DNA of 64,000 nt from Phoenix dactylifera (Eukaryota; Streptophyta; Magnoliopsida; Arecales; Arecaceae), in NCBI RefSeq assembly GCF_009389715.1, contig NC_052407.1, forward strand, positions 3,351,154 to 3,415,153, read 5' to 3'. Under the pieces are notes generated by a model that ran no database searches, was not told the DNA's origin, and saw nothing but the letters and a program-made list of their open reading frames with translations. Both the position numbers and the translations under genes were made by a program. Shown in pieces: positions 14,151-32,673 of the stretch; positions within the stretch are counted from its first letter, which is position 1; each line of letters begins with the position of its first letter.

Positions 14151-17100
14151 TTATTTTGGCGATTCTATAGTTGAGGCTGGATCAGAGCGCTTCCTCTTAG
14201 GTTCTCGATCCCCCAAGTGCAAAGAAACACAGAGATCTTCATCTGATGAGTCCCTCAGTGGAGAAATTGTCCTTGATTCATGGCTGACTTCTTGGTTGTG
14301 ATGCATGGGGGGCACGTTGAAATTTGGAATGAACTGATACTCCTTCACATTGTTTGCAACCTCAACCATGTCTACATGGAATTCAACATTTCCAAGACGA
14401 GGTTGTTGTTGGATATTCTGACCTAGAGCCTCAGAGATCTCCTCATTCTTATCCTTTGGCAGGCTGCACTCTATAGGAGATGAGTCTCCAACGGTAGAAT
14501 CAAAACCAGCTCCAAAACCCCTCCTTTGCTTCTGTACCGCTTCTTTGTTCACAAAGAGTTTACAACCAAAGTAAAAGTCAGCAGATTGTCATATAAATTT
14601 TGGAGGGGGGGAGTCAGAGGGAAACATGAGACTGTTATGTCCAAAGTCAAGAAAAACACAAACCTTGGAGTCCTGCACTGGTTGTGATAAGATCAAGTTC
14701 CAATAAATCAAGCAGCCGACCTAGATCAACTCCACTTGTCCAGTTCTCTGGACCATGATCACTTTTGAGCTTTAATCTCCCACGATTAGCTGTCCCACCA
14801 CGTATGAACCCTATAGGCCGTGGTTTCTCATCATCCTCTCCCATCAAAATGATGAGGCTTCCACTATCACCTTCAAGATCAAAGGTTTGTTGGTTCTCAC
14901 CCACAACAAGAAGATCAGTGAAAAAGCATATTCCTTTTTCATCATTATGTTCAAGAGCATAAGCCATTATAGTCCCAGCAGTTAGACCAGAGCTTCTGCC
15001 AACCTTCACCACATGCTTCCCAATGAGGCTGTTGATTGGAGATTTCAAGTCTATAGACTTGATGTCTCCAGTCTCGCCAACTCCTTTCACTGCAGTCGTG
15101 ACATTAGATATGTCGAAGCTATCTGCAAAGGGGATAAATGCCCCATCAACCTGAACAAAAGTCTCTGCGGGTGCATCAAAAGGTAAGAGGTATGTTTGGG
15201 GATCGGAACCTCATTCAAGAATTCATTAGCAAAAGCCATTGTGACCTCTACACACACAAAAAAAAAACCCATTGTAACCTACTTTCACAGAGATGTTGCT
15301 GCCTGGTTATGAATTCCTGTTGTAATGAACTGCCAACCAACTTATTGGCACTCATCATGGGTACCACATAAATGCATTACTATTTACCAGTGCATATAGA
15401 GCACCTGGGCATGACTGAATTACATGAATATATGTCATTGTATAAGACATTCAAAATGAAATTTCTGATGACCAGGCAAACAAACTTTACAGGTCGGTGT
15501 TAAGAAACTTTATTGTCTAAAAATATGATTAGTCAAACAGTTCAAAATATTTCTTCTGGCTGCTATTAGAATTCTGAGATGAAGCACCTGGCAAATTCAG
15601 TATCCTAAATATTAAAGCACTTGCTTTCCAATGATAGAAACAAGATTTTGGGATGAATGAAGTGTTTCCACTGATGTCATAAACCTTATGGCAAGTTTGA
15701 TATGCTAAATGGATACATAATCATGTACACAGCACTAATTATGTTTAATTATATTACCTGGGTTCATTGAAGCATATGTCCCATACCAAACATCATCTGT
15801 GGTGAAAGACGTTACCCTCGCCACATAACCTAGGTACACTCCAGGTCCATGGTTGGGAGGTAAAGGATGAAACATCTTCTGGTTAGGGTAATCCAAATCA
15901 ACCGCCACATGCCAGTTTGTGAGAAAACCTACTTGTCTATTGCCTGTTTGGCTCTTCACAATTGCACCCAAAGTTCCAAATGTCTGTTGGCTTGCTACCT
16001 ATGCATCATAGCAAAATAATCAGAAGAGAAAAAGAAGCAAGCTAAAAAGGAACACAAAAGGAAAGCAAAGTAACTAAATGGAGGCTATCAGGCCATTGAT
16101 GTTAAGGATGCAAGATATGTGATTTCATCCAAGAGTTCAAAGATACTGCCATCAGGAATAAATTCATATCTGGGTTTCTACCCTGCCAAGGACTAAACAA
16201 TAGAACAAATGCTACATTCTACAAATTTTGCGGCATAAGAATCCATGTAGCTCAGCTCTTGCTCTCTTCTTTTTTTCGAAGAGAGACAAGAAGGGGGACT
16301 TACTTGCAATATAATAACCTATCCCAATACTTCAGGATGCACCACCCAAGAATCAAATTCAGAATCCGTTGGAGTTCTAACTCAGAAAAGATATTTAATT
16401 TTAAAAAAAGAAATAAACCAGCCTTATCCCCTAAATGTTAGATGGTTTAAATACTTTAAAATTTTTATCCTTTTCTTCATACGCTTCTTTTAGAAGAGTT
16501 GTGACTTTTCGAAAAAAAACGTTGGTTTTGGTTTCCGTAGGGATGCAATATTTTTGAAACATCGCGTACCTCGAAAATGCCGCACTGTATCAGTCACCGG
16601 ACAGAGTCTATAAATAGGCTTTGCGTCCAGTGTATTGGATTACTCAATCTATTCCACTCGCACATCCGATTCCTTGCTTCCCAAGAGAGATAGAAAATAC
16701 AATACTTTTCTTTTCTTTCATTCTTTCTCTATTCTTTCTTTTATATTCTTTTCTAGGCATCTGAAAGAGTCGGTCAGGTCACGCCTACCTAGCGATCGTG
16801 CTCGTTAGAGGAGGATCAAGCTGAGCGGGGTTGTCGTACCTTGAGGACAAGATTGCCACAGACCTCCACATAAGAGGCGAATCACATTCTTAGGGTGGTG
16901 TATATCACACGTCTCGATCCAGGCAAACTTTTTTCAATCTTCTGATTTTATTCTAGTAGATTGTTCCTTTATAATATTTTTACAAAATAAAGATACAACA
17001 TTTTAGGCAAAATATATTCCAGCATAATCTCTGATTGTTGTGCAGAAAGATACGATCAGGGTACGCTAAACCATCCGAAACCGGCCAGTTTGAGCTGGAT

Positions 17101-20100
17101 CAAACCAAAATGGTCAAGAACTGAGATGGTTCGGGCAATCTGGATGATTCAATCCCTTAAAATCCCCCTTGCCCTGTGACCCTCTACTCTCCCTCTCTAC
17201 TACCATGATCGAAGCTTCAAAGCTTCACCCTTCACTGCATGCACTTATCTTGCTCACTCGATCACTCATATTGCTCCTCTTCAATACTAATTAACACTGA
17301 CCGACACCCAAGTAAGCCCCTCCACTCTCTCTCCCTCCCTCCCTCTCTCCCTCCTGCCCCTCCCTCTCTCTCTCTCTTCCTCTCCTTCCTATCCCCCTCC
17401 CTCTCCCTAGTTCTGTATGCCCCAGCTCAATATAGTACCGCTATGTATCGTATCAAATCGGTCGCAGTATGAGTTCTGGGATTGATCCGACAAACCTTCA
17501 GTATGACCACTAGAGCAAGCCCCAATTCATGGGCAGCTATTGCCATTGTGCTTTTATTTCCATACTAAAATCGAAATCTAAGTATAACATTTGTTTGCAA
17601 CAATAATAAATAATAAATAGGAGCAAATGGCAGTTGTTTTCAGCAAGCATTGTTGGTGCACATTTGACTCCTCTCCTTGATGGAGCAACATGGTACTTAT
17701 GTTGTTAGGCAATATCAAACTCCTCTAGTCTGACATACCTTGTAAAAGACAAAGTCAAACCATCTGTCAATAACTCAGACAAACTTTCAGCCTTTAAGTT
17801 TTGTTGGCGAGTAAATGAGGCACTCAAATGCTTTTTCTATTTTTAATAACTCCAAATAAGTCTTTGAGGCTGCAATCACCAAAGACTAAGATGCAGACTT
17901 GCCAAAGGAGGAAGGGCGAGGTTGCTATCGAAACCTGCCCAATCCCTTGTAAAAGAATCTACAATGCCATTTGGCAGCACTTTCATTTTTTCATTTTCAA
18001 TAATAAAAAATAATTTTTTATTTTTTATTTTTTTCTAAAATTTTAGAAATAAAAACATGTTTGGTATAGTTAATTATTTTTAAAAATATAAATATGGTGA
18101 TGATGGAAGAGTTGGTGATAGTGCTAGGGCAATGGAGCTGGCACTAGTGTTGGTGGTCGAGGCAGCAATGTGGCAAAGGTGGTGGCAATGTTATAGAGGA
18201 AGTGGTAGCAATAGTGATGGTGGTGGAGGCACCGACAATATGGTAGAGACAGTGATGATGATTGTAATGGTGTGATTATGGTGAAAGAGGCAGTGACGAC
18301 AGTGTGGGCGGGGCTGGGAGGAGGGTGGAGCGGCAAGAATTTTGGAGGTGTCCTTACATGTATATTTTAGCCCATTTTAGGGTTTTTAGGATCATTGCTT
18401 TCTTTGGGAATTTTGAGAGGGAGTGAGACCGAGGCATTTTTATTAGGGTTTCTTCTCATGTTTGTACTATTCCACTGCTAGTAAAACTTTCTCTGATAGC
18501 CTCCGTCTATGGACATAGATCATACCATGTAATTTTGTTTCCCTATTTACTTGATAGACCTAGATTTAGATTCTTGTCATAACACAAAACCCCCCTCTGT
18601 GAACAAATTTTACATCTCTATTTAGTAAGATCTTTGGCACCAAAATCAAGAAAGTCCTATGCTTAATAATAGTCAAAAGTCATGCTGGGAAACAATCCCA
18701 AATTAACCCAATGTGGCAAACAAAAAGATATGCGTCAATGAATTCAAGGAGGCATTGGCCTCCATAGAAGATGTATACAAATTGCCTAGCTTATCTTGCA
18801 AAAGCACTATAAATGGGCTTTGGTCTGCTAGTTAGTACCATTTTAGTTGGAGCAAGTGCTAGGGAAAAGTTTCAGGTTTGGACCCAAAAGCGGTGTTCCA
18901 ACTATATTTCTCAAACTGGAAAACTAGAACTCTGTTTGTGTCAATATTCTTTCCTTATATTCCATGTTAAAGATTGGGGCATACTTCATCTAGGTTATAG
19001 GAAAATTATATTATTGTACTTTATATTTATATTATGAATTTTTTTAATATGTTACTTCTATTTTCCTCATTTTTCTACTTAAAATAAATATTAGTATTAA
19101 CATGATAATGTATAATAAATATAAATGAGAATATTAACTCTATAATAACAATTAATATATTTTTATAGGATTAATAATTTATAGAATTAATAAATATACT
19201 TTTATGAAATATATTAATAATTAATATATTAATGATTATATTAATAATTTACCATAATTTATTTCTATATGATTAATAAGTATATTTTCATGGAATTGAT
19301 CAAAGGTAGTTTCATTATTATATGGTTAGTAATCTTGATTTCCATGGAATATAAAATAAGTTACTCGTGGATAACTAGGGATCTTTAATCACCGGAATAC
19401 TAATCAGGGATCGGATTACATTAGGATAAGGATCACCAGTGATCTAAGATCACCTTTGTGATCCCATTTGGGTCATCAACCACCACCTAAATGTACCAAT
19501 GCAAGGTTGAATAGGGGTGAGGCATCTAGGATTTAGGAAAACAACAAGCAAATCTTTGTGTCAGTTACCATAGATATGAACTAGAACAAAATAATGCAAT
19601 TAATGAAATATTATTATAAAAAAGAACTTGTCTTAAAATGCACTCACAGGTGAGCTAATCAATCTGACAAACTATCGAAGATTCAAACCAAGGTCAGTCG
19701 TACCGATACTGGTAGGTGTATCAGTAAGTAAAATAGCATTCATAAAAAATAAGGTGTGGAGTATACCTTGTTAATAGGATCTGCAGGATCCTATTTACTC
19801 CATAGCAAATCTAATTACCTTTATTTCCACAATCTACTCATTTCCTTTGTTATTTCTATTAACTATGTATAGCTTAGTCTTCCTAATTTAGCTAGCAGAA
19901 CTAATTGGCAGATTTATTGTGTATAGCTATCTATAGCTAGTTGCCATGTATTATAGCTAATTTTCTTGTAATGTACAGCTGTCTATAGCTAACTTCTCTG
20001 CACGGTTTTTCTATTAATGAGATTCTCACAGAGATGAGAGATTATTCAGTCAATTTGACATGGTATCAGAGCCTATGTTCTGAATCTGGTCATTAACGCT

Positions 20101-23100
20101 TTCTTCTTTCGGTTTTCTCTAGTTTTAGTCCAAGGGGCTCTCGGTGTTCTAGATTTCTGAGTCTCGGTATAGCCTTATGTTTTCTAGATTCTGAATTCTT
20201 GGTAAAGTTCTCTAGTTTTCTGGTTTCTAGCTTTCTTGGAGTTCTTTTTCTGGTGTTCTTTCTTTTGGCCATAATGTCTACAGAAGCCTTTTGTGTTCGT
20301 TTCACTGGGAAGAACTACTCTACTCAGGAGTTTCGGTTCAAGATGTTTATCAAAGGCAGGGAGCTTTGGGATCATATTGATGGCTCTTCTAAAGCACCAA
20401 CTGATGCTAAGGAATTTGCTCAATGGGAGACCAAGGATGCTCGGATTATTTCTTGGATTTTGGGGTCCATTGAGCCGCATATGGTGAACAATCTGCGGTC
20501 CTTTAGCACCGCCAAGGAGATGTGGGATTATTTAAAGCGCATATACAACCAAGACAACAATGCAAGGTGGTTTCAGTTGGAGTTGGAGATTGCAAATTTC
20601 AGCCAAGGTAATCTTTCCATTCAGGAGTATTATTCTGGTTTTCTTAATCTGTGGAACGAGTATTCCGGAATCATTCATGCTAAGGTGCCAAAAGAAGCCT
20701 TGTCCGCTATTCAAGAGGTTCATGCAACCAGCAAACGTGATCAATTTTTGATGAAACTTAGGCCAGAATTTGAAGCTACTAGGGCTGCGCTATTAAACAG
20801 AGATCATGTTCCCTCTTTGGATGTGTCTTGGTGAATTGCTTCATGAGGAGCAATGGACTCTTACCCAGGCTGTTATGGCACAAGAGAAGTTGTCCTCAGA
20901 TGTTATGAATGTTGCATATGCTGCTCAAGGGAAGGGAAAGGGCAAGGACAAGGTCCAGTGCTATTGCTGCAAGGAATTCGGCCATATTGCTCGCAACTGT
21001 AACAAGAAATTCTACACTTACTATAAGCAGTCCGGGCACATCATTAAGGAGTGTCCTACGCAACCTCAGAATCGCCGAGTCAATGCTTTTCAAGCTGCGG
21101 TCAGTTCTTCTGCTTCTGTGGATCAGTCCTCAAGAATCGCATCTGCTGCAGACACATCAACAGGTCCTAACCAAGTTGTTCTTACTCCAAAGATGGTGCA
21201 ACAGATGATTATCTCGGCCTTTTCAGTATTGGGACTTCAAGGTAACGGTAAGACAATTTCTCATCCTTGGTTTGTTGATTCTGGAGCATCAAATCACATG
21301 ACTGGCTGTTCTGATTTTCTGCACAATGTTCGGTCCTATAACGGTACACAACACAATCGAATTGCTAATGGAACTAATCTTCCTATTACTGCTATTGGAG
21401 ATCTTAGTTCACCTTTCCGCAATGTGTTTGTGTCACCTGGACTCTCTACTAGTTTGATTTCAGTTGGTCAATTGGTTGATAACAACTGTGATGTGCATTT
21501 TTCTCGAAATGGTTGTCAGGTTCAGGATTAAGTGTCGGGAAAAATGATCGCGAAGAGGCCTAAAGTTGGAAGATTGTTTCCTCTGCATTTTACTCTTCCA
21601 AGTCTATTGTCTTTGGCTTGTACTGCTGCAACAAATCAGAGTGAGGTTTGGCATAAACGCCTAGGCCATCCTAACTCTCTTGTTTTGTCTCATTTAGTGA
21701 AGCATGGTTTTTTGGGCAATAAAGATCAGTTCTCTTCTTACAGCATGTCTTTTGATTGTACTGCTTGTAAACTCGGAAAAAGCAAAACTCTATCTTTTCC
21801 TAATTATGGTAGTCGAGCTGAAAAATGCTTCGATATTATTCATAGTGATGTTTGGGGCATTACTCCTGTAACTTCTCATGCCGGATATAAATATTTTGTG
21901 ACGTTCATTGATGATTATAGTAGTTTCACTTGGGTGTATTTTCTCCGCTCCAAATCCGAAGTATTTTCTATTTTTCAGACCTTTGTGGCTTATATTGAGA
22001 CTCAATTCTCAACATGTATTAAAGTATTAAGGTCTGACTCAGGCGGAGAATATATGTCTCATGACTTTCAGGCGTTCTTGCATCAAAAAGATATAATTTC
22101 TCAGCGATCTTGTCCTTATACACCTTAACAAAATGGTGTTGCTGAACGTAAGAATCGCCATCTGTTGGATGTTGTTCGCACCTTGTTGCTTGAATCCTCT
22201 ATTCCTTCTAAATTTTAGGTTGAAGCTTTGTCTACTGCAGTTTATTTGATTAATCGACTGCCTTCTCAAATTTTGGACTTTGATTCCTCTTATTATCGTC
22301 TCTATGGCAAGCATCCTGGTTACAATCAGTTTCATACTTTTGGATGTATTTGCTTTGTTCACTTACCTGCCAATGAACGTCACAAACTTGCTGCCCAGTC
22401 GGTTCAGTGTGCCTTTATGAGTTATAGTATTGCTCAAAAGGGTTTTGTGTGTTATGATGCTGCTACTAACCGACTTCGTGTCTCTAGAAATGTAGTTTTC
22501 TTTGACAATCAGTATTTCTTTCAGTCCAATGTTGCCTCATCTTCTGATCTTGCCATGCTTCCTAGCTTTGATGATATATATCATTCTATTGAGCGCTTCA
22601 AACCAAATATTGTGTATAAGAGACGTCGGCCACCTCAACCCCTTCCCGATACTGATCCACCACCTGAGCCTGCAGTCCCTGCGCCTCGGAGGTCCACCAG
22701 AGCCTCCCATCAACCAGATAGGTATGGATTCTCACATACATCACTCAATGTGACTCTGTCTACCATCACGATTCCTACTTGTTATTCCCAGGCAATTAAG
22801 CAGGAATGTTGGGTGAAGGCCATGCAAGATGAGCTTCAAGCTCTATAAGAGAATCACACTTGGGATATTGTTCCATGTCCTTCTGATGTTAAATCCATTG
22901 GCTGTAAATCGGTGTATTCTGTGAAGCTACGTCCTGATGGGACTGTGGAAAGATATAAGGCTCGGTTGGTTGCTCTTGGTAATAGACAGGAATATGGAGT
23001 AGATTATGATGAGACTTTTGCTCCGGTGGCTAAAATGACTACAATATGGACAGTTCTTGTCATTGCTGCTTCTAAAGGTTGGGCCCTACGACAAATGGAT

Positions 23101-25301
23101 GTTAAGAATGCTTTTCTGCATGGTGATCTCAAGGAGGAGATTTTTATGACACCTCCACTAGGTTTATTCACTACACCATCTTCTAATGTGTGCAAGCTGA
23201 AGCGCTCTCTCTATGGCTTGAAGCAGGCACCTTGTGCTTGGTTTGATGAGTTTCGCTCCTCATTACTTGGTTTTTCCTTTGTCCAAAGTCAATATGACTC
23301 TTCCTTATTTCTCCGCAAGACTGAGAATGAAATTGTTCCCCTTCTGGTTTATGTTGATGATATAGTTATTACAGAAACAGATTCTGTGTTGATTCAGCAG
23401 CTTCAACAACACCTACAGGCTTCATTTCATATGAAGGATCTTGGTTCTCTTCAATATTTTTTGGGCCTTGAGTTGAAGTCTGGACCTGCGGGTACTTTCT
23501 TGCACCAACATAAGTATACACAAGATTTGATTGCTTTGGCTGGACTTCAAGATGCTTCTTCTGTTGACACACCTTTGGAGGTGAATGTAAAGTATCATCG
23601 TGAGGAGGGCAAGCTTCTTTCTGATCCCTCACCGTACCGACAGTTGGTTGGAAGTCTGAACTATTTGACCATAACTCGGCTTCATATTTCCTTCGTTGTT
23701 CAGCAAGTTAGTCAGTTTATGCAGACTCCTCGACACCTTCATTTGGCTGCCGTCTGCCGTATCATTCACTATCTGAGAAGCACTCCAGATCGTGGCTTAT
23801 TCTTTCCTGCTGGTTCACCTATTCAGTTGAGGGCATACAGTGATGCTGATTGGGCTGGCTGTCCAGATACGCGTCGCTCAGTTACGGGCTGGTGTATGTT
23901 TCTTGGCAATGCACTCATTTCACGGAAGAATAAGAAACAGGACCGTGTTTCTAAGTCTTCAACGGAGTCTGAGTATTGAACCATGTCCCCTGCATGTTCT
24001 GAGATTATTTGGCTTCGTGGATTGTTGGCTGAGCTTGGGTTCCCTCAACTTGAGCCCACTTCTCTTCATGCAGATAACACTAGTGCAATTCAGATTGCAG
24101 CTAATCCTGTCTTTCATGAGCGCACCAAGCATATTGAGGTGGATTGTCACTCTATTCGTGAGGCTTATGATCGACGTGTTATCACTCTTCCTCATATCAC
24201 CACGGATTTTCAGATTGCTGATGTGTTTACCAAGGCTATGACTCGTCCACACCATAAGTTTCTAGTTGGCAAATTGATGCTTCTTGATCACCCAGCATCA
24301 ATTTGAGGGGGGATGTTAATAGGATCTGCAGGATCCTATTTACATATGGTTTCCATAGCAAATCTAATTACCTTTATTTCCACAATCTACTCATTTTCTT
24401 TGTTATTTCTATTAACTATGTATAGCTTAGTCTTCCTAATTTAGCTAGCAGAACTAATTGGCAGATTTATTGTGTATAGCTATCTATAGCTAGTTGCCAT
24501 GTATTATAGCTAATTTCCTTGTAATGTACAGCTGTCTATAGCTAACTTCTCTGCACGGTTTTTCTATTTAATGAGATTCTCACAAAGATGAGAGATTATT
24601 CAGTCAATTTGACATACCTGAGATCCAGAACCTATACATGGATCAGCCCCACGTAACAAATCCACAAGTTGTGTGTACAATTGTTCTTTAGGAGCTGGTG
24701 CTGGTGTTGGTGCATCATAATAAGAAAATTCGACAACATCCACATCACACCATATACCCCCTGGACCCTGCTCAGAAAACAAGAGGGATAGCTGATGATG
24801 CAATTGAAATACAGAATACCTTTAATTAAACAATCATCATAACAGATATAACAGAAAATGCAGAATATCTCCTACCTCAAGGGCTCTTGGCAAACACTGG
24901 ATGTGACTGAGCCACTGCCTGTGAACTTTTCGAGCAACAAAAACAAGAATAGCTGGTATGTCAGTCAGTGCTCCGTTCCTAATTCGAAATCCTACTGCTG
25001 TGCCAAGACTACAACGGCATAAAATCTTGCTATGGCATGCTCTTATAGTCATTAAGTCAAGCAATGTTGCGGCTTGCTTCCCAGTTGGCAACCTGTCAAT
25101 ATTTCCAGGCAAAACTGCCTTCTGGAGGTTTCTGAAGTAATTTGCTCGATCTTCAGCAGCACCATGCAGTTGGGTCGATGTCGGCCACGAAAAATATGCA
25201 GCATTGCTTTCAGAGTGCTGACTGCCTGATGCATAAGGTTGGAGAGATGGATAAGGCAGATTGGGATAGCTTCCTATATTTCTCTCCATATATCCCCACA
25301 T
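14151..25301 (-). CDS. NAL1: NARROW LEAF1-type trypsin-fold protease
   Basis: Five coding exons: 25301-24876, 24767-24618, 15998-15758, 15164-14664 and 14542-14151, all GT-AG and in phase, giving 569 aa (rice NAL1 is 582). The ATG at 25301 follows an in-frame TGA and lies 11 bases inside its exon. Family blocks are clear: ESNAAYFSWPTS, TDIPAILVFVARKVHRQWL, IGSGSQVASQ, NPGETFVQVDGAFIPF, VGRSSGLTAGTIMAYALEHN, FDLEGDSGSLIIL, PENWTSGVDLGRLLDLLELD, and the C-terminal LHLGDREPKRKRSD, probably a nuclear signal. By alignment with rice NAL1 the triad is H222, D279 and S373. Residue 221, beside the catalytic His, is Trp. NAL1 proteins govern leaf width, vein number and panicle size in rice. Intron 2 (24617-15999) contains an antisense Copia element. 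Family assignment is firm; orthology versus a paralogue is less certain. Confidence 0.93.
16550..17000 (+). promoter_or_regulatory. LTR-like promoter fragment with TATA box
   Basis: TATAAATAGG at 16609 is followed by sequence typical of plant LTR R/U5 or leader regions: pyrimidine-rich TTTCTTTCATTCTTTC runs, then GCCTACCTAGCGATCG, then TTGAGGACAAGATTGCC. No paired LTR, primer-binding site or coding region is visible, so this is only a probable truncated LTR inside intron 2 of the NAL1-type gene. Confidence 0.35.
17316..17412 (+). repeat. CT-rich low-complexity tract
   Basis: Runs of CTCC and CTCT with few interruptions, within intron 2 of the NAL1-type gene. On the gene's own (minus) strand this is a GA/GGAG-rich tract. 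Confidence 0.7.
17413..19763. other. Intron sequence with low-complexity patches
   Basis: Contains a GGTGGYRATG-type simple-repeat region at about 18095-18310 that produces a spurious Pro/His/Ser-rich reading frame. A very AT-rich stretch follows at 19020-19300. No gene. Confidence 0.55.
19764..19768 (+). other. Target-site duplication TACCT, left copy
   Basis: TACCT directly precedes the Copia 5' LTR and recurs directly after the 3' LTR at 24615-24619. On the minus strand it reads AGGTA, the splice donor of NAL1-type exon 2. Confidence 0.93.
19769..20060 (+). repeat. Copia 5' LTR
   Basis: 292 bp, TG...CA ends. It lacks an 8-bp segment (ATATGGTT) that the 3' LTR carries after CTATTTAC. Confidence 0.95.
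20061..20072 (+). other. Copia primer-binding site
   Basis: TGGTATCAGAGC, complementary to the 3' end of initiator Met-tRNA, directly adjoining the 5' LTR. Confidence 0.93.
20274..24306 (+). pseudogene. Copia gag-pol polyprotein, broken
   Basis: Starts at the ATG of MSTEAFCVRF (20274). A gag domain (KEMWDYLKRIY) runs to about 20830, where a frameshift moves the frame. Then follow the zinc knuckle CYCCKEFGHIARNC (20960-21001), protease VDSGASNHM (near 21272-21300), integrase HHCC zone (VWHKRLGHP, CTACKLGKS) and core (IHSDVWG, GEYMS), RT with YVDD at about 23350, and RNase H with DADWAGCPDTRRS and TKHIEVDCH. In-frame stops lie at 21529, 22126, 22216, 22846 and 23977. Four replace apparent CAA or CGA codons and one an apparent TGG, consistent with cytosine deamination. 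The element can move only in trans. Confidence 0.93.
24303..24313 (+). other. Copia polypurine tract
   Basis: TTGAGGGGGGA directly precedes the 3' LTR; the plus-strand primer site in retrotransposon replication. Confidence 0.85.
24314..24614 (+). repeat. Copia 3' LTR
   Basis: 301 bp, same ends as the 5' LTR and about 99% identical outside indels. Its last bases (TTTGACA), read on the minus strand, supply TGT to the NAL1-type splice donor, which becomes AG|GTATGT. Confidence 0.95.
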
Positions 25302-26986: not shown

Positions 26987-28436
26987 ATTACTGTAATGTC
27001 CGGGCCCACAACCTACTAGGCCCAATAAGAAATAGGCCCAGTTAAGGGTTTGGGCCCAAATTTCACTGTGGGCAGTATTATTATAATGGTTATTATAATG
27101 GTTTAAAAAAAAAAAACGAAGGGATAAGACCGACAGGGAAGGGTTACCTCACCCCCTGCTGGCAGCCGATGCCGGCGCGCCGGAGACAGGGGGGGCGGCG
27201 GCCAGTCCCGGAGCAGGAAGGAATGGAGAGGATGGGACCTCTCAGAGGGGGGGTCTCATCCTCTAAACAAATTATTTAAGCCTCTGCCGGCAACCCCAAG
27301 TGACAGACCCCCTAGAATACTGAACGAGAGAGTGAGAGAGCCGAAGCCTTGGAGCCGAAGGCAAAGGAGCCCTGAAGCTCCAAGAGGAAGGAGGGACTAC
27401 CAGGGGAGGTACTGCCCGACTGCAACCGGCCAAGGTAAGGAGCATTAGGGTAAGAGTTTAACAGGGGTAAAGAAATTCCACTGTGGGGTGCTCTTCCCCT
27501 CTGTGTCAACAGTGAAACAGAGGGGAGGAAACCGACACAGGGGAGGGGAAAAAGGCCTACAGTCCACTGGTCAGGCCGGACTCAAAGGTCGTGCGCCCGA
27601 CGACCACCCGGGCCGAACCCAGCCGGGCTCGGCCTGCGGATGAATCGGACACCGCGGCCTCGGCCGCCGGTACCCTGGAGTTCGGGGGGCAACCCGGGCC
27701 GCCAGATTTGGCCGGGACGACAACAGAGGCGGCCACAGGGCCGCCAGCCCCGGCCGGACCACCACCTCTTCTCCGGCAAGGGGTGGTGGTTCCGGAGGGA
27801 AGGACCGAAAAAAAAAAGGAAAATGAACTCACCGGATCTTGAGGCTTCATCCCCTCCGGCCATATCTGGCCGTGGACGGAACGGGTGGAGGCCCTCGGTT
27901 AAAGCCGGATTCCGACCCATCTCCGAATCCTTCCCCTCTCCGGCATCACTTCGGAGGGAGGAAGGGCTTCCCTTCCGCCGGTGCACCGGGGGGAAACCCC
28001 CACGTCGATCGGTGGATCGGGGGGAGCCTCGCCTCCCCGGCCGCCTGCAAGAGAAGAAAAGGGAAAAGGAGAGAGGGAAAGAAGGAAGAAAGACCGAGGC
28101 CGGAGGGAGCCGAGGGCTCGACCGGAGAGTAGGGTCTCGGCAGGGTCAACAAAGAAAGAAGGAAAGAGGGAGAGAGAGAGAGGGAAAGAGAGGGAGTGAC
28201 CGAGAGGGGAAGGCCACAGATCTGGCCGAAGGAGAAGAAGGGGAGCCGGAGGAGAGGGCCGGAAGCATGGGCTTCGGTGGGAGGTTGAAGGAGAGAACGA
28301 GAGAGAGAGGAGGAAACGGAGGAGAGAGGGGAGGAAGGTAGGTGAAGAGGCGGAAGCCTCTAGAAGGGGGGAGAAAGAAAACATGGTAACGGGTTTGCGG
28401 GTCGGATCTGAACCTGCAACCCGTTAAGCTTAAATA

Positions 28437-29096: not shown

Positions 29097-29364
29097 ACTG
29101 AGCCGGCCTTGCCAGTGGCCGATAATGACTGAGCCAGCCCCGCCAGTGGCCGACTAATAACTGAGCAGGCCCCGCCAGTGACCAATAATGAATTCGCCAT
29201 AGCATCTATGAGGTACTACCTATACGAAGCATTATTTATGAACTCTTAAGAGCTACTGACCCAATGTAACTGAGCCGGCCTTGCCAGTGGCCGAGAATGA
29301 CTGAGCCAACCCCGCCAGTGGCCGCCTAATAACTGAGCCGGTCTCGCCAGTGGCCAAGAATGAC
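29097..29364 (+). repeat. Two blocks of about 33-36 bp repeats within the solo LTR
   Basis: The unit, ACTGAGCCGGCCTTGCCAGT plus GGCCGATAATG, occurs three times at 29097-29195 and three times at 29269-29364. Each block ends in a shorter AATTCGC or ACTTCGC variant. The blocks and their surroundings (CTACGGGCC... and CTACTGACCC...) also look like a higher-order duplication of about 170 bp. Confidence 0.85.
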
Positions 29365-30303
29365 TTCGCAGTAGCATTTAAGAGCACGACCACGGCATGC
29401 CGGTGGCACGATTTTTCCTACATGTGCATATTACATGATTTCTTGACATTGTAGGATACTGTTTTATTTACTCAGCATGGATATTTTATTATGATGATTG
29501 ATTTAGTAGCATACATGTCAGCTTCTCAAACCCTGATAAGCATGGTTAGCATTTTTAGTCGATTCGACAAGATTATGCAGGATTACTTACTGAGCCGTGT
29601 AGCTCACGCCTGTTCATTTACGTTTTTTTTTTTTTTAGATCACCACCAGTGACAGCTGTCAGAAGCATTTTTCTTTTGCAACAGGGCTTCTTTATTTTTG
29701 GGGATGATATAAATAAACTTTTGTGTATATAAACTATGTAGAAGCTCTGTACTTTATATGAACCAGTGGGTTGTAATACCTTCTTTTGATATCTACAAGT
29801 TACACTGCTTTTGACTACCTGTTGACCATGTACGAGGCTGCGTGCTATTGTGGGCGGTAGTCGGCAATAGCACGGCCGTGTCACGGAGCCAGATCCGGGG
29901 CGTGACAATTACAATAAGTGAATCCATATCACAAGTTTCAATCACAGTTTTCGATGATTACGTAACAAAGAACTGCTGCAGCCAAGGAAACCCGCAACAA
30001 AGTAATGGTTCCAGATAGAGAACAATGAAGAAATAAAATATTCAGAAAATAGATATAGAATACTTAGTATAAAGAGTTAAGTAACAGGCTCTTACCAAAA
30101 CAGAAAAGAAGAAGAAAAGAAAAGAGAGTCGAGTAACAGGGGATAAAGAGGACAAGAACATGCTTAAGAAAAAAACAACAAACGTCATTATTTTTTCTCT
30201 CCTATCTTAGACTGGAACTGGGAATCCATGTTTGCAAATAACTTCAGCAAAAACAGGGGAAAAACAAGACATGGATCTCTGTAAGAAAAGAGTCAGAACA
30301 TAC

Positions 30304-31587: not shown

Positions 31588-32673
31588 TGTCACGCCCCTG
31601 CCTGCGCAGGACACTTGAGGCAGCCAATGCCCATGTGGGGGCCACGTGAGGGAGGAACACGGGGCTCCCCTGCTAGATATTGTTTGATTTCAGGGCCCGC
31701 ACGCAGCGCTCAGACCCCTTCCCGTTTTTATTTTCCACTCAAAATGTGTCTGCAGGATTTAGAGACACCCGCCTCATATGCCCAGGCTATGGAGCGAGTC
31801 TTTCCGATGTGGGACTATTGGACCTCACATCCTTTCCACCATTGGACAAGAGCCGTCCTCGACTCTGATACCAAATGTCACGCCCCTGCCTGCGCGGGGC
31901 ACGTGAGGCACATAGTGCCCACATGGGGGCAACATAGAGGGAACACGGGGCTCCCCTGCCAGATATTGTCCGGTTCTGGAGCCCACACGCGCCGCTTAGT
32001 ATCCTTCCCGATTTTGTTTTCCACCCAAAATGCATCCGCAGGACTTGGAGACACCCGCCTCATATGCCCAAGCTCTAAAATGAGTCTTTCCGATGTGGGA
32101 CTATTGGGCCTCACACCAAAATGTCACGCCCCCGCCTGCGCGGGACACGTGAGGCACCCAGTGCCCATGTGGGGGCCACATGAGGGAAGAACATGGGGCT
32201 CCTCTGCCAGATATTGTCCGGTTCCGGAGCCCGCACGCGCGCCACACGCACCGCTCAGACCCCCTCCGGTTTTGTTTTCTACCCAAAACACATCTGTAGA
32301 ATTTGGAGACACCCGCCTCATATGCCCAAGCTCTGGAACGAATTTTTCCGATGGGGGACTATTAGGCCTCACACCTTTCCTACAATCGGACAAGAGCAGT
32401 CCTCGGCTCTGATACCAAATGTCGCGCCCCCGACTGTGCGGGGCACGTGAGGCAAATAGTGCCCACGTGCAGGCCACATGAGGGGAGAACATGAAGCTCC
32501 CCTGCCAGATATTGTCCGATTCCGGAGCCCGCACGTACGCACACGCACCGCTCAAACCCCTCTCTAGTTTTATTTCTCATCCAAAACGTGTCTCTGCAGG
32601 ATTTGGAGACACCCGCGTCGTATGCCCAGACTGTGGAACGAGTCTTTCCGATGTGGGACTATTGGGCCTCACA
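31588..32673 (-). mobile_element. Tandem TRIM array: four LTRs, three very short internal domains
   Basis: Four direct repeats, each beginning TGTCACGCCCC or TGTCGCGCCCC and ending GGGCCTCACA or a close variant: 31588-31829, 31876-32115, 32122-32373 and 32420-32673 (about 240-254 bp). The minus strand reads TGTGAGGCCC...GGGGCGTGACA with TG...CA ends, followed by TT and TGGTATCAGAG, the Met-tRNA primer-binding site. Two internal domains (31830-31875, 32374-32419) are only 46 bp and hold the primer-binding site plus a purine-rich stretch (GTAGGAAAGG); the third is reduced to CCAAAA. The whole array shares one 5-bp TSD, ATAAG. There is no coding capacity; the long open frame across it is a by-product of GC-rich repeats. 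Confidence 0.9.
31861..31873 (-). other. TRIM primer-binding site
   Basis: GACTCTGATACCA on the plus strand, complement TGGTATCAGAGTC, two bases from the LTR end. A second copy (GGCTCTGATACCA) lies at 32405-32417. Confidence 0.85.

Follow-up and report, generated by a model that had tools for sequence, protein, structure and literature searches.

The window analysed here, a 64,000-nucleotide stretch of Phoenix dactylifera contig NC_052407.1, carries on its minus strand a NAL1-type gene made of five exons (exon 1, coding part, 24876..25289; exon 2, 24618..24767; exon 3, 15758..15998; exon 4, 14664..15164; exon 5, through the stop codon, 14151..14542) and four GT-AG introns, which upon joining yields an open frame of 565 amino acids. 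The best PDB match of this protein is 8has (Protein NARROW LEAF 1; residues 13-562, E 3.9e-248), which we take to be the rice protein, and its domain content is that of a full-length member of the NAL1 family (Pfam NAL1_N, E 1.6e-43; Nal1_C, E 9.5e-151). The FLTNxHVAVD and GDSGS stretches are retained; presumably they have a catalytic role in NAL1 protease function, a role for which a literature search found no support. According to PMC12915138, NAL1 influences the size of rice leaves and the width of maize leaves. Elsewhere in the window, both strands of a GC-rich segment (27454-28423) carry long open frames that overlap, probably as a compositional effect, and two of the open frames near 27.5-28.4 kb gave no Pfam match at E 0.001. 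Two neighbouring arrays (29097-29191 and 29269-29365) share a nearly identical 31-nt unit (ACTGAGCCGGCC...), and at 31588-32115 a 286-nt unit is repeated in tandem (1.8 copies, 82% matches).

Intron 2 of the NAL1-type gene is 8619 nt long, 4851 nt of which are accounted for by a Copia LTR retrotransposon and one copy of its target site duplication. The element (19769..24614, plus strand, 4846 bp) lies antisense to the host gene and its termini read TGTTAATAGG...CAATTTGACA. Its paired LTRs (5' LTR, 19769..20060, 292 nt, without 8 nt found in the 3' LTR; 3' LTR, 24314..24614, 301 nt) have TG...CA ends (TGTT...GACA), and TACCT stands on both sides. Although the coding frames are interrupted by stops and a frame change, the frame pieces match, in order, the Pfam families Retrotran_gag_2, zf-CCHC, Pol_BBD, gag_pre-integrs, rve, SH3_retrovirus and RVT_2, with the integrase upstream of the reverse transcriptase as in Copia elements (rve in 21535-22125, RVT_2 in 22849-23976). 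Reading further located a putative primer binding site (TGGTATCAGAGC, from 20061 after the 5' LTR), which presumably fits the initiator Met tRNA, and a purine tract (GAGGGGGGA, 24305-24313). The two LTRs differ at 3 of 291 aligned positions, all transitions (K2P 0.0104; Poisson 95% range 0.2-3.0%), and are also separated by an 8-nt and a 1-nt indel, in line with the difference of about 1% and the recent event proposed in an earlier note on this DNA. At 1.3e-8 or 6.5e-9 substitutions per site per year, the point estimates of its age are 0.4 and 0.8 million years (0.08 and 2.3 at the extremes of the Poisson range). The insertion is young, and LTR divergence gives no precise date for it.

The far copy of the TACCT duplication occupies 19764..19768 and the exon-side copy 24615..24619. 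On the minus strand the duplication reads AGGTA and consists of the last two bases of exon 2 and the first three of intron 2, such that the exon-side copy straddles the junction as AG|GTA, as the earlier note had described (its span began at 24614, where the element ends, one base before the duplication starts). Exon 2 ends in ...GGATCTCAG (TCTCAG) with its last base at 24618, and intron 2 starts with GTATGTCAA (minus strand). Joining the two flanks reconstructs the empty site CTCAG|GTATACTCC, from which the donor before insertion is read as CAG|GTATAC; the exon side now reads CAG|GTATGT (24612..24617, minus strand), the change of donor that had been claimed. The ancestral AG|GTATAC is retained by the far copy with its flank, where AAG|GTATAC constitutes a possible cryptic donor (19761..19766, minus strand, with the first intron-type base at 19766). 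The present donor had been described as rebuilt from the LTR, which holds for TGT only: insertion occurred after +3, and CAG|GTA, that is the exon and the GTA of the gene, was left untouched. Matching 5-bp duplications flanking LTRs are no chance outcome. The limits of exon 2 are supported by the joined frame, the PDB alignment and two paralogs; a mis-called exon 2 end is ruled out, as 8has and both paralogs agree on the boundary, with the 8has alignment of the joined protein being gapless at the junction (GSGSQ|VAS) and a 2-residue gap lying elsewhere in exon 2.

Strength of the donor and of its competitors

Donor strength was modelled as the energy of the duplex with the U1 5' end, in a pairing register that the program was left free to choose. 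The present GTATGT scored -8.0 kcal/mol versus -7.2 for GTATAC, and the number of Watson-Crick pairs in the usual register rose from 6/9 before the insertion to 8/9 after it, supporting the claim that the insertion left a donor at least as good. Within the same gene, the donors of exons 1, 3 and 4 scored -9.3, -8.1 and -5.7, respectively, and the far-side string -5.7. Thus, in this simple model, the GTATGT donor holds up as at least equal to GTATAC and as middling within the NAL1-type gene. The modelled gain of 0.8 kcal/mol is small and the model is crude, ignoring enhancers as well as intron length.

We also modelled insertions of either end of the window's LTR at points from -3 to +8. The GT was retained in both orientations at each of the eight points between +1 and +8, since insertion does not displace the exon-side copy of the duplication (at +1 the T is LTR-derived). 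The view that such an insertion should have destroyed splicing finds no support here. Of the four points between -3 and 0, three lost the GT, and the remaining one (-1) gained a coincidental GT without U1 pairing (0.7 kcal/mol). The best modelled energy was that of the +3 point, where a canonical LTR end, which reads TG from either side, placed after GTA always gives GTATG. Insertion at +3 into a GTAAGT donor is predicted to cause a loss (from -11.8 to -8.0), so the effect is no general donor improvement.

The earlier note had also pointed to an AG|GTATAC decoy about 4.85 kb into the intron. The string is present, but it is unremarkable, being tied 16th-18th by U1 energy among the 32 AG|GT sites of 15990-24630 (counting the true donor as well as the edge of exon 3). 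Three sites outscore the true donor, two of them inside the Copia element (22366 and 21436). The strongest of the 32 is a consensus donor, CAG|GTAAGT at 22366 on the minus strand of the antisense element, a possible start of exonisation. Unspliced read-through from exon 2 would add five codons before a stop (VCQID*), near the start of the Nal1_C region (residues 165-431).

Paralogs, selection and the odds of such an insertion

In the genome searched (773,078,369 bases in 2391 contigs), stretches matching all five exons were also found on contigs C12 and C9. In both paralogs exon 2 ends in TCTCAG at the same base and is followed by the donors GTATTT (C12) and GTATCT (C9), each with a U1 energy of -7.2. 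As the exon 2 boundary and the GTAT are common to both, the boundary and GTAT are old and intron 2 predates the element. Intron 2 measures 9479 nt in the C12 paralog and 2367 nt in the C9 paralog, and by blastn at 1e-8 neither matched intron 2 of the window, element included. Among the best candidates scored, the exon 1-2 stretch of the window had one full-length match, the window itself, and further matched these two paralogs; hence no empty allele was found in the assembly, outside of which alternative haplotigs probably lie.

In a count confined to exons 1-4, dN/dS was 0.12-0.14 between the window gene and the paralogs and 0.06-0.08 between the paralogs. In 420 gap-free columns aligned with the PDB sequence, private residue changes numbered 44 in the window copy, 32 in the PDB sequence, 1 in the C12 paralog and 2 in the C9 paralog, and in 6 of the 420 columns a change was placed on the C12/C9 stem. 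On these counts the window gene comes out as the fastest-evolving of the three paralogs, constrained overall. Some private changes fall inside otherwise conserved stretches (FLTNWHVAVD, GFIRGGTANRG). Such fast change possibly reflects a new function or slow decay, and constraint on the window gene may be easing irrespective of the donor. Because the insertion is young, the coding sequence is expected to have gathered no more than some 0.3 nonsense changes since then in the absence of selection, which makes the intact frame weak evidence for the time after the insertion; dN/dS and the open frame are averages that reach far back before it and say little about that time.

If such a genome is assumed to have about 1e5 donors and between 1e4 and 1e5 LTR insertions, random landing would place roughly 1 to 13 insertions exactly at +3 before selection. 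As selection removes insertions that break splicing, the survivors next to exons look rescued. The duplication on the junction is thus about what is expected of an LTR-rich genome, and as a single case found by reading it is no evidence of targeting. Other placements of the family were compared by same-strand rows and flanks, leaving out the distances of L003, L004, L005, L007 and L008 (other strand). The duplication was GTAAC at C1522 and at C16:7.43 Mb (read on both sides) as well as at C2160 (one side fetched), and CCTAA/CCCAA surrounded the element on C134. A preference of this Copia family for AGGT targets is unsupported by these very few independent insertions, with GTAAC and CCTAA/CCCAA elsewhere. 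The copies at C1522, C2160 and C16:7.43 Mb (L003-L005, L007 and L008) have the flanking bases examined in common (GTAACTGAC and, where the opposite side was fetched, CAGTGGTAAC). This points to a single insertion that appears in the assembly three times, for example through unmerged haplotypes.

Precedents, competing explanations and meaning

In work attributed to Giroux 1994, Dennis 1988 and Wessler 1991, maize Ds and Ds1 elements are reportedly spliced as introns. These cases resemble the one described here in that a transposon is spliced out and its effect softened, but they concern DNA transposons that lie within exons and form new introns. Within date palm, PMC6794320 describes Ibn Majid as a Copia-like element that also generated a 5-bp duplication inside a gene, VIRESCENS. 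Unlike the element in the window, Ibn Majid interrupts an exon (exon 3) and causes a premature stop, and it is larger (about 11.7 kb with 469-bp LTRs versus 4.8 kb with LTRs of about 300 bp). Introners, as presented in PMC9860276, are similar insofar as the target duplication overlaps splice-site nucleotides and element and target jointly make a splice site. They create new introns in many genes, whereas the window Copia enlarged an existing one; an introner-like origin of intron 2 is ruled out, since both paralogs already have the intron at the same base and the element therefore created no new one.

The closest parallel is Yaoer, an LTR element in SfCHS2 of Spodoptera frugiperda (PMC11249258). 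Yaoer sits between an exon and its intron, its 5-bp duplication (GAAGG) spans the junction, the GT of the donor is completed by the first base of the LTR and the original donor is restored on the far side. The window likewise has a duplication over the junction and LTR bases in the donor. The two cases differ in that Yaoer inserted after +1 and its effect was measured, while the window element inserted after +3, is antisense and is known from sequence, with the last three of the six donor bases being LTR-derived. Yaoer is thus a published near-twin with the same geometry two bases upstream, and the mechanism proposed below is not new. Yaoer reduced the normal transcript 12-fold without abolishing it, element-containing transcripts were found and a resistance phenotype ensued (PMC11249258). 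That some normal transcript persists speaks for the usability of a donor completed by an LTR base, but given the reduction a rebuilt donor is no proof of normal splicing.

The explanation that we consider probable is that the Copia element landed at +3 of intron 2, that the donor was completed by the LTR end and that the intron is still removed. The element would have integrated three bases inside intron 2 of the NAL1-type gene, with cuts staggered by 5 bp over AG|GTA, as the duplication indicates, and a copy of the junction would thus have been kept on both sides. The exon-side copy would have preserved CAG|GTA, the LTR terminus, reading TG either way, would have contributed the T at +4 and the G at +5, and the third base of the window's LTR the T at +6. 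For U1 the resulting GTATGT should be no poorer a target than GTATAC, and most likely at least some of the transcripts lose the element when the 8.6-kb intron is spliced out. This fit would be a by-product of LTR ends, target duplication and the survival of harmless insertions, requiring no special mechanism. The anatomy, the ancestral donor and the intact frame can be observed directly; from these we infer splicing at 24618 and tolerance of the insertion, to which paralog redundancy may have contributed.

The most serious competitor, although we hold it to be unlikely, is that the insertion has impaired or abolished gene function, as with Yaoer, much of the transcript reading on from exon 2 into the LTR or being spliced from another donor in spite of GTATGT. 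Such an allele might persist because two paralogs cover for it, through heterozygosity or by being restricted to some cultivars. Read-through would meet the VCQID* stop early in the Nal1_C region, and the 12-fold reduction of normal transcript reported for Yaoer (PMC11249258) came about with nearly the same geometry. The existence of two paralogs and the excess of private changes in the window copy (44 of 420 columns versus 6 on the stem of the paralogs) point in the same direction, whereas the modelled donor strength did not drop, the frame is open across five exons and dN/dS is 0.12-0.14, even if the latter two average over the time before the insertion. It is highly improbable that exon 2 is instead spliced from the far-side GTATAC, which would leave about 4.85 kb of antisense element in the transcript: AAG|GTATAC is present, and Yaoer transcripts retaining the element were seen (PMC11249258), but the far-side donor is weaker (-5.7 versus -8.0), is only tied 16th-18th of 32 and implies an exon some 5 kb long. 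Still more improbable is an assembly artefact with a misplaced element or a trimmed edge, which could appeal to the single assembled copy of the locus found but is opposed by the matching 5-bp duplications, the TG...CA ends, the non-identical LTRs, flanks whose joining restores a sensible donor and the genome-wide uniqueness, at two or fewer mismatches, of AGGTA plus the LTR end in the window (exon-side end only, one of two possible end strings; the reversed control string did not occur in the genome).

The anatomy is real, splicing at the LTR-completed donor is probably retained, and the mechanism is ordinary rather than new, combining target site duplication, a TG end and survival. The locus shows neatly, in a case from nature, that a donor string can stay usable when a 5-bp target site duplication is joined to the TG end of an LTR. 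One may speculate, doubtful as the idea is, that donors starting with GTA form a class in which +3 is a safe landing point, since TG...CA LTR ends read TG inward from both sides, and that the +4 to +6 bases of many plant donors are LTR termini, with recurrent donor turnover and growth of introns from the donor. As the insertion is young, empty alleles may still exist, and the effect on splicing of a 4.8-kb insertion at a donor whose modelled strength is unchanged would be measurable. The insertion also marks the fastest-evolving member of the NAL1 trio.
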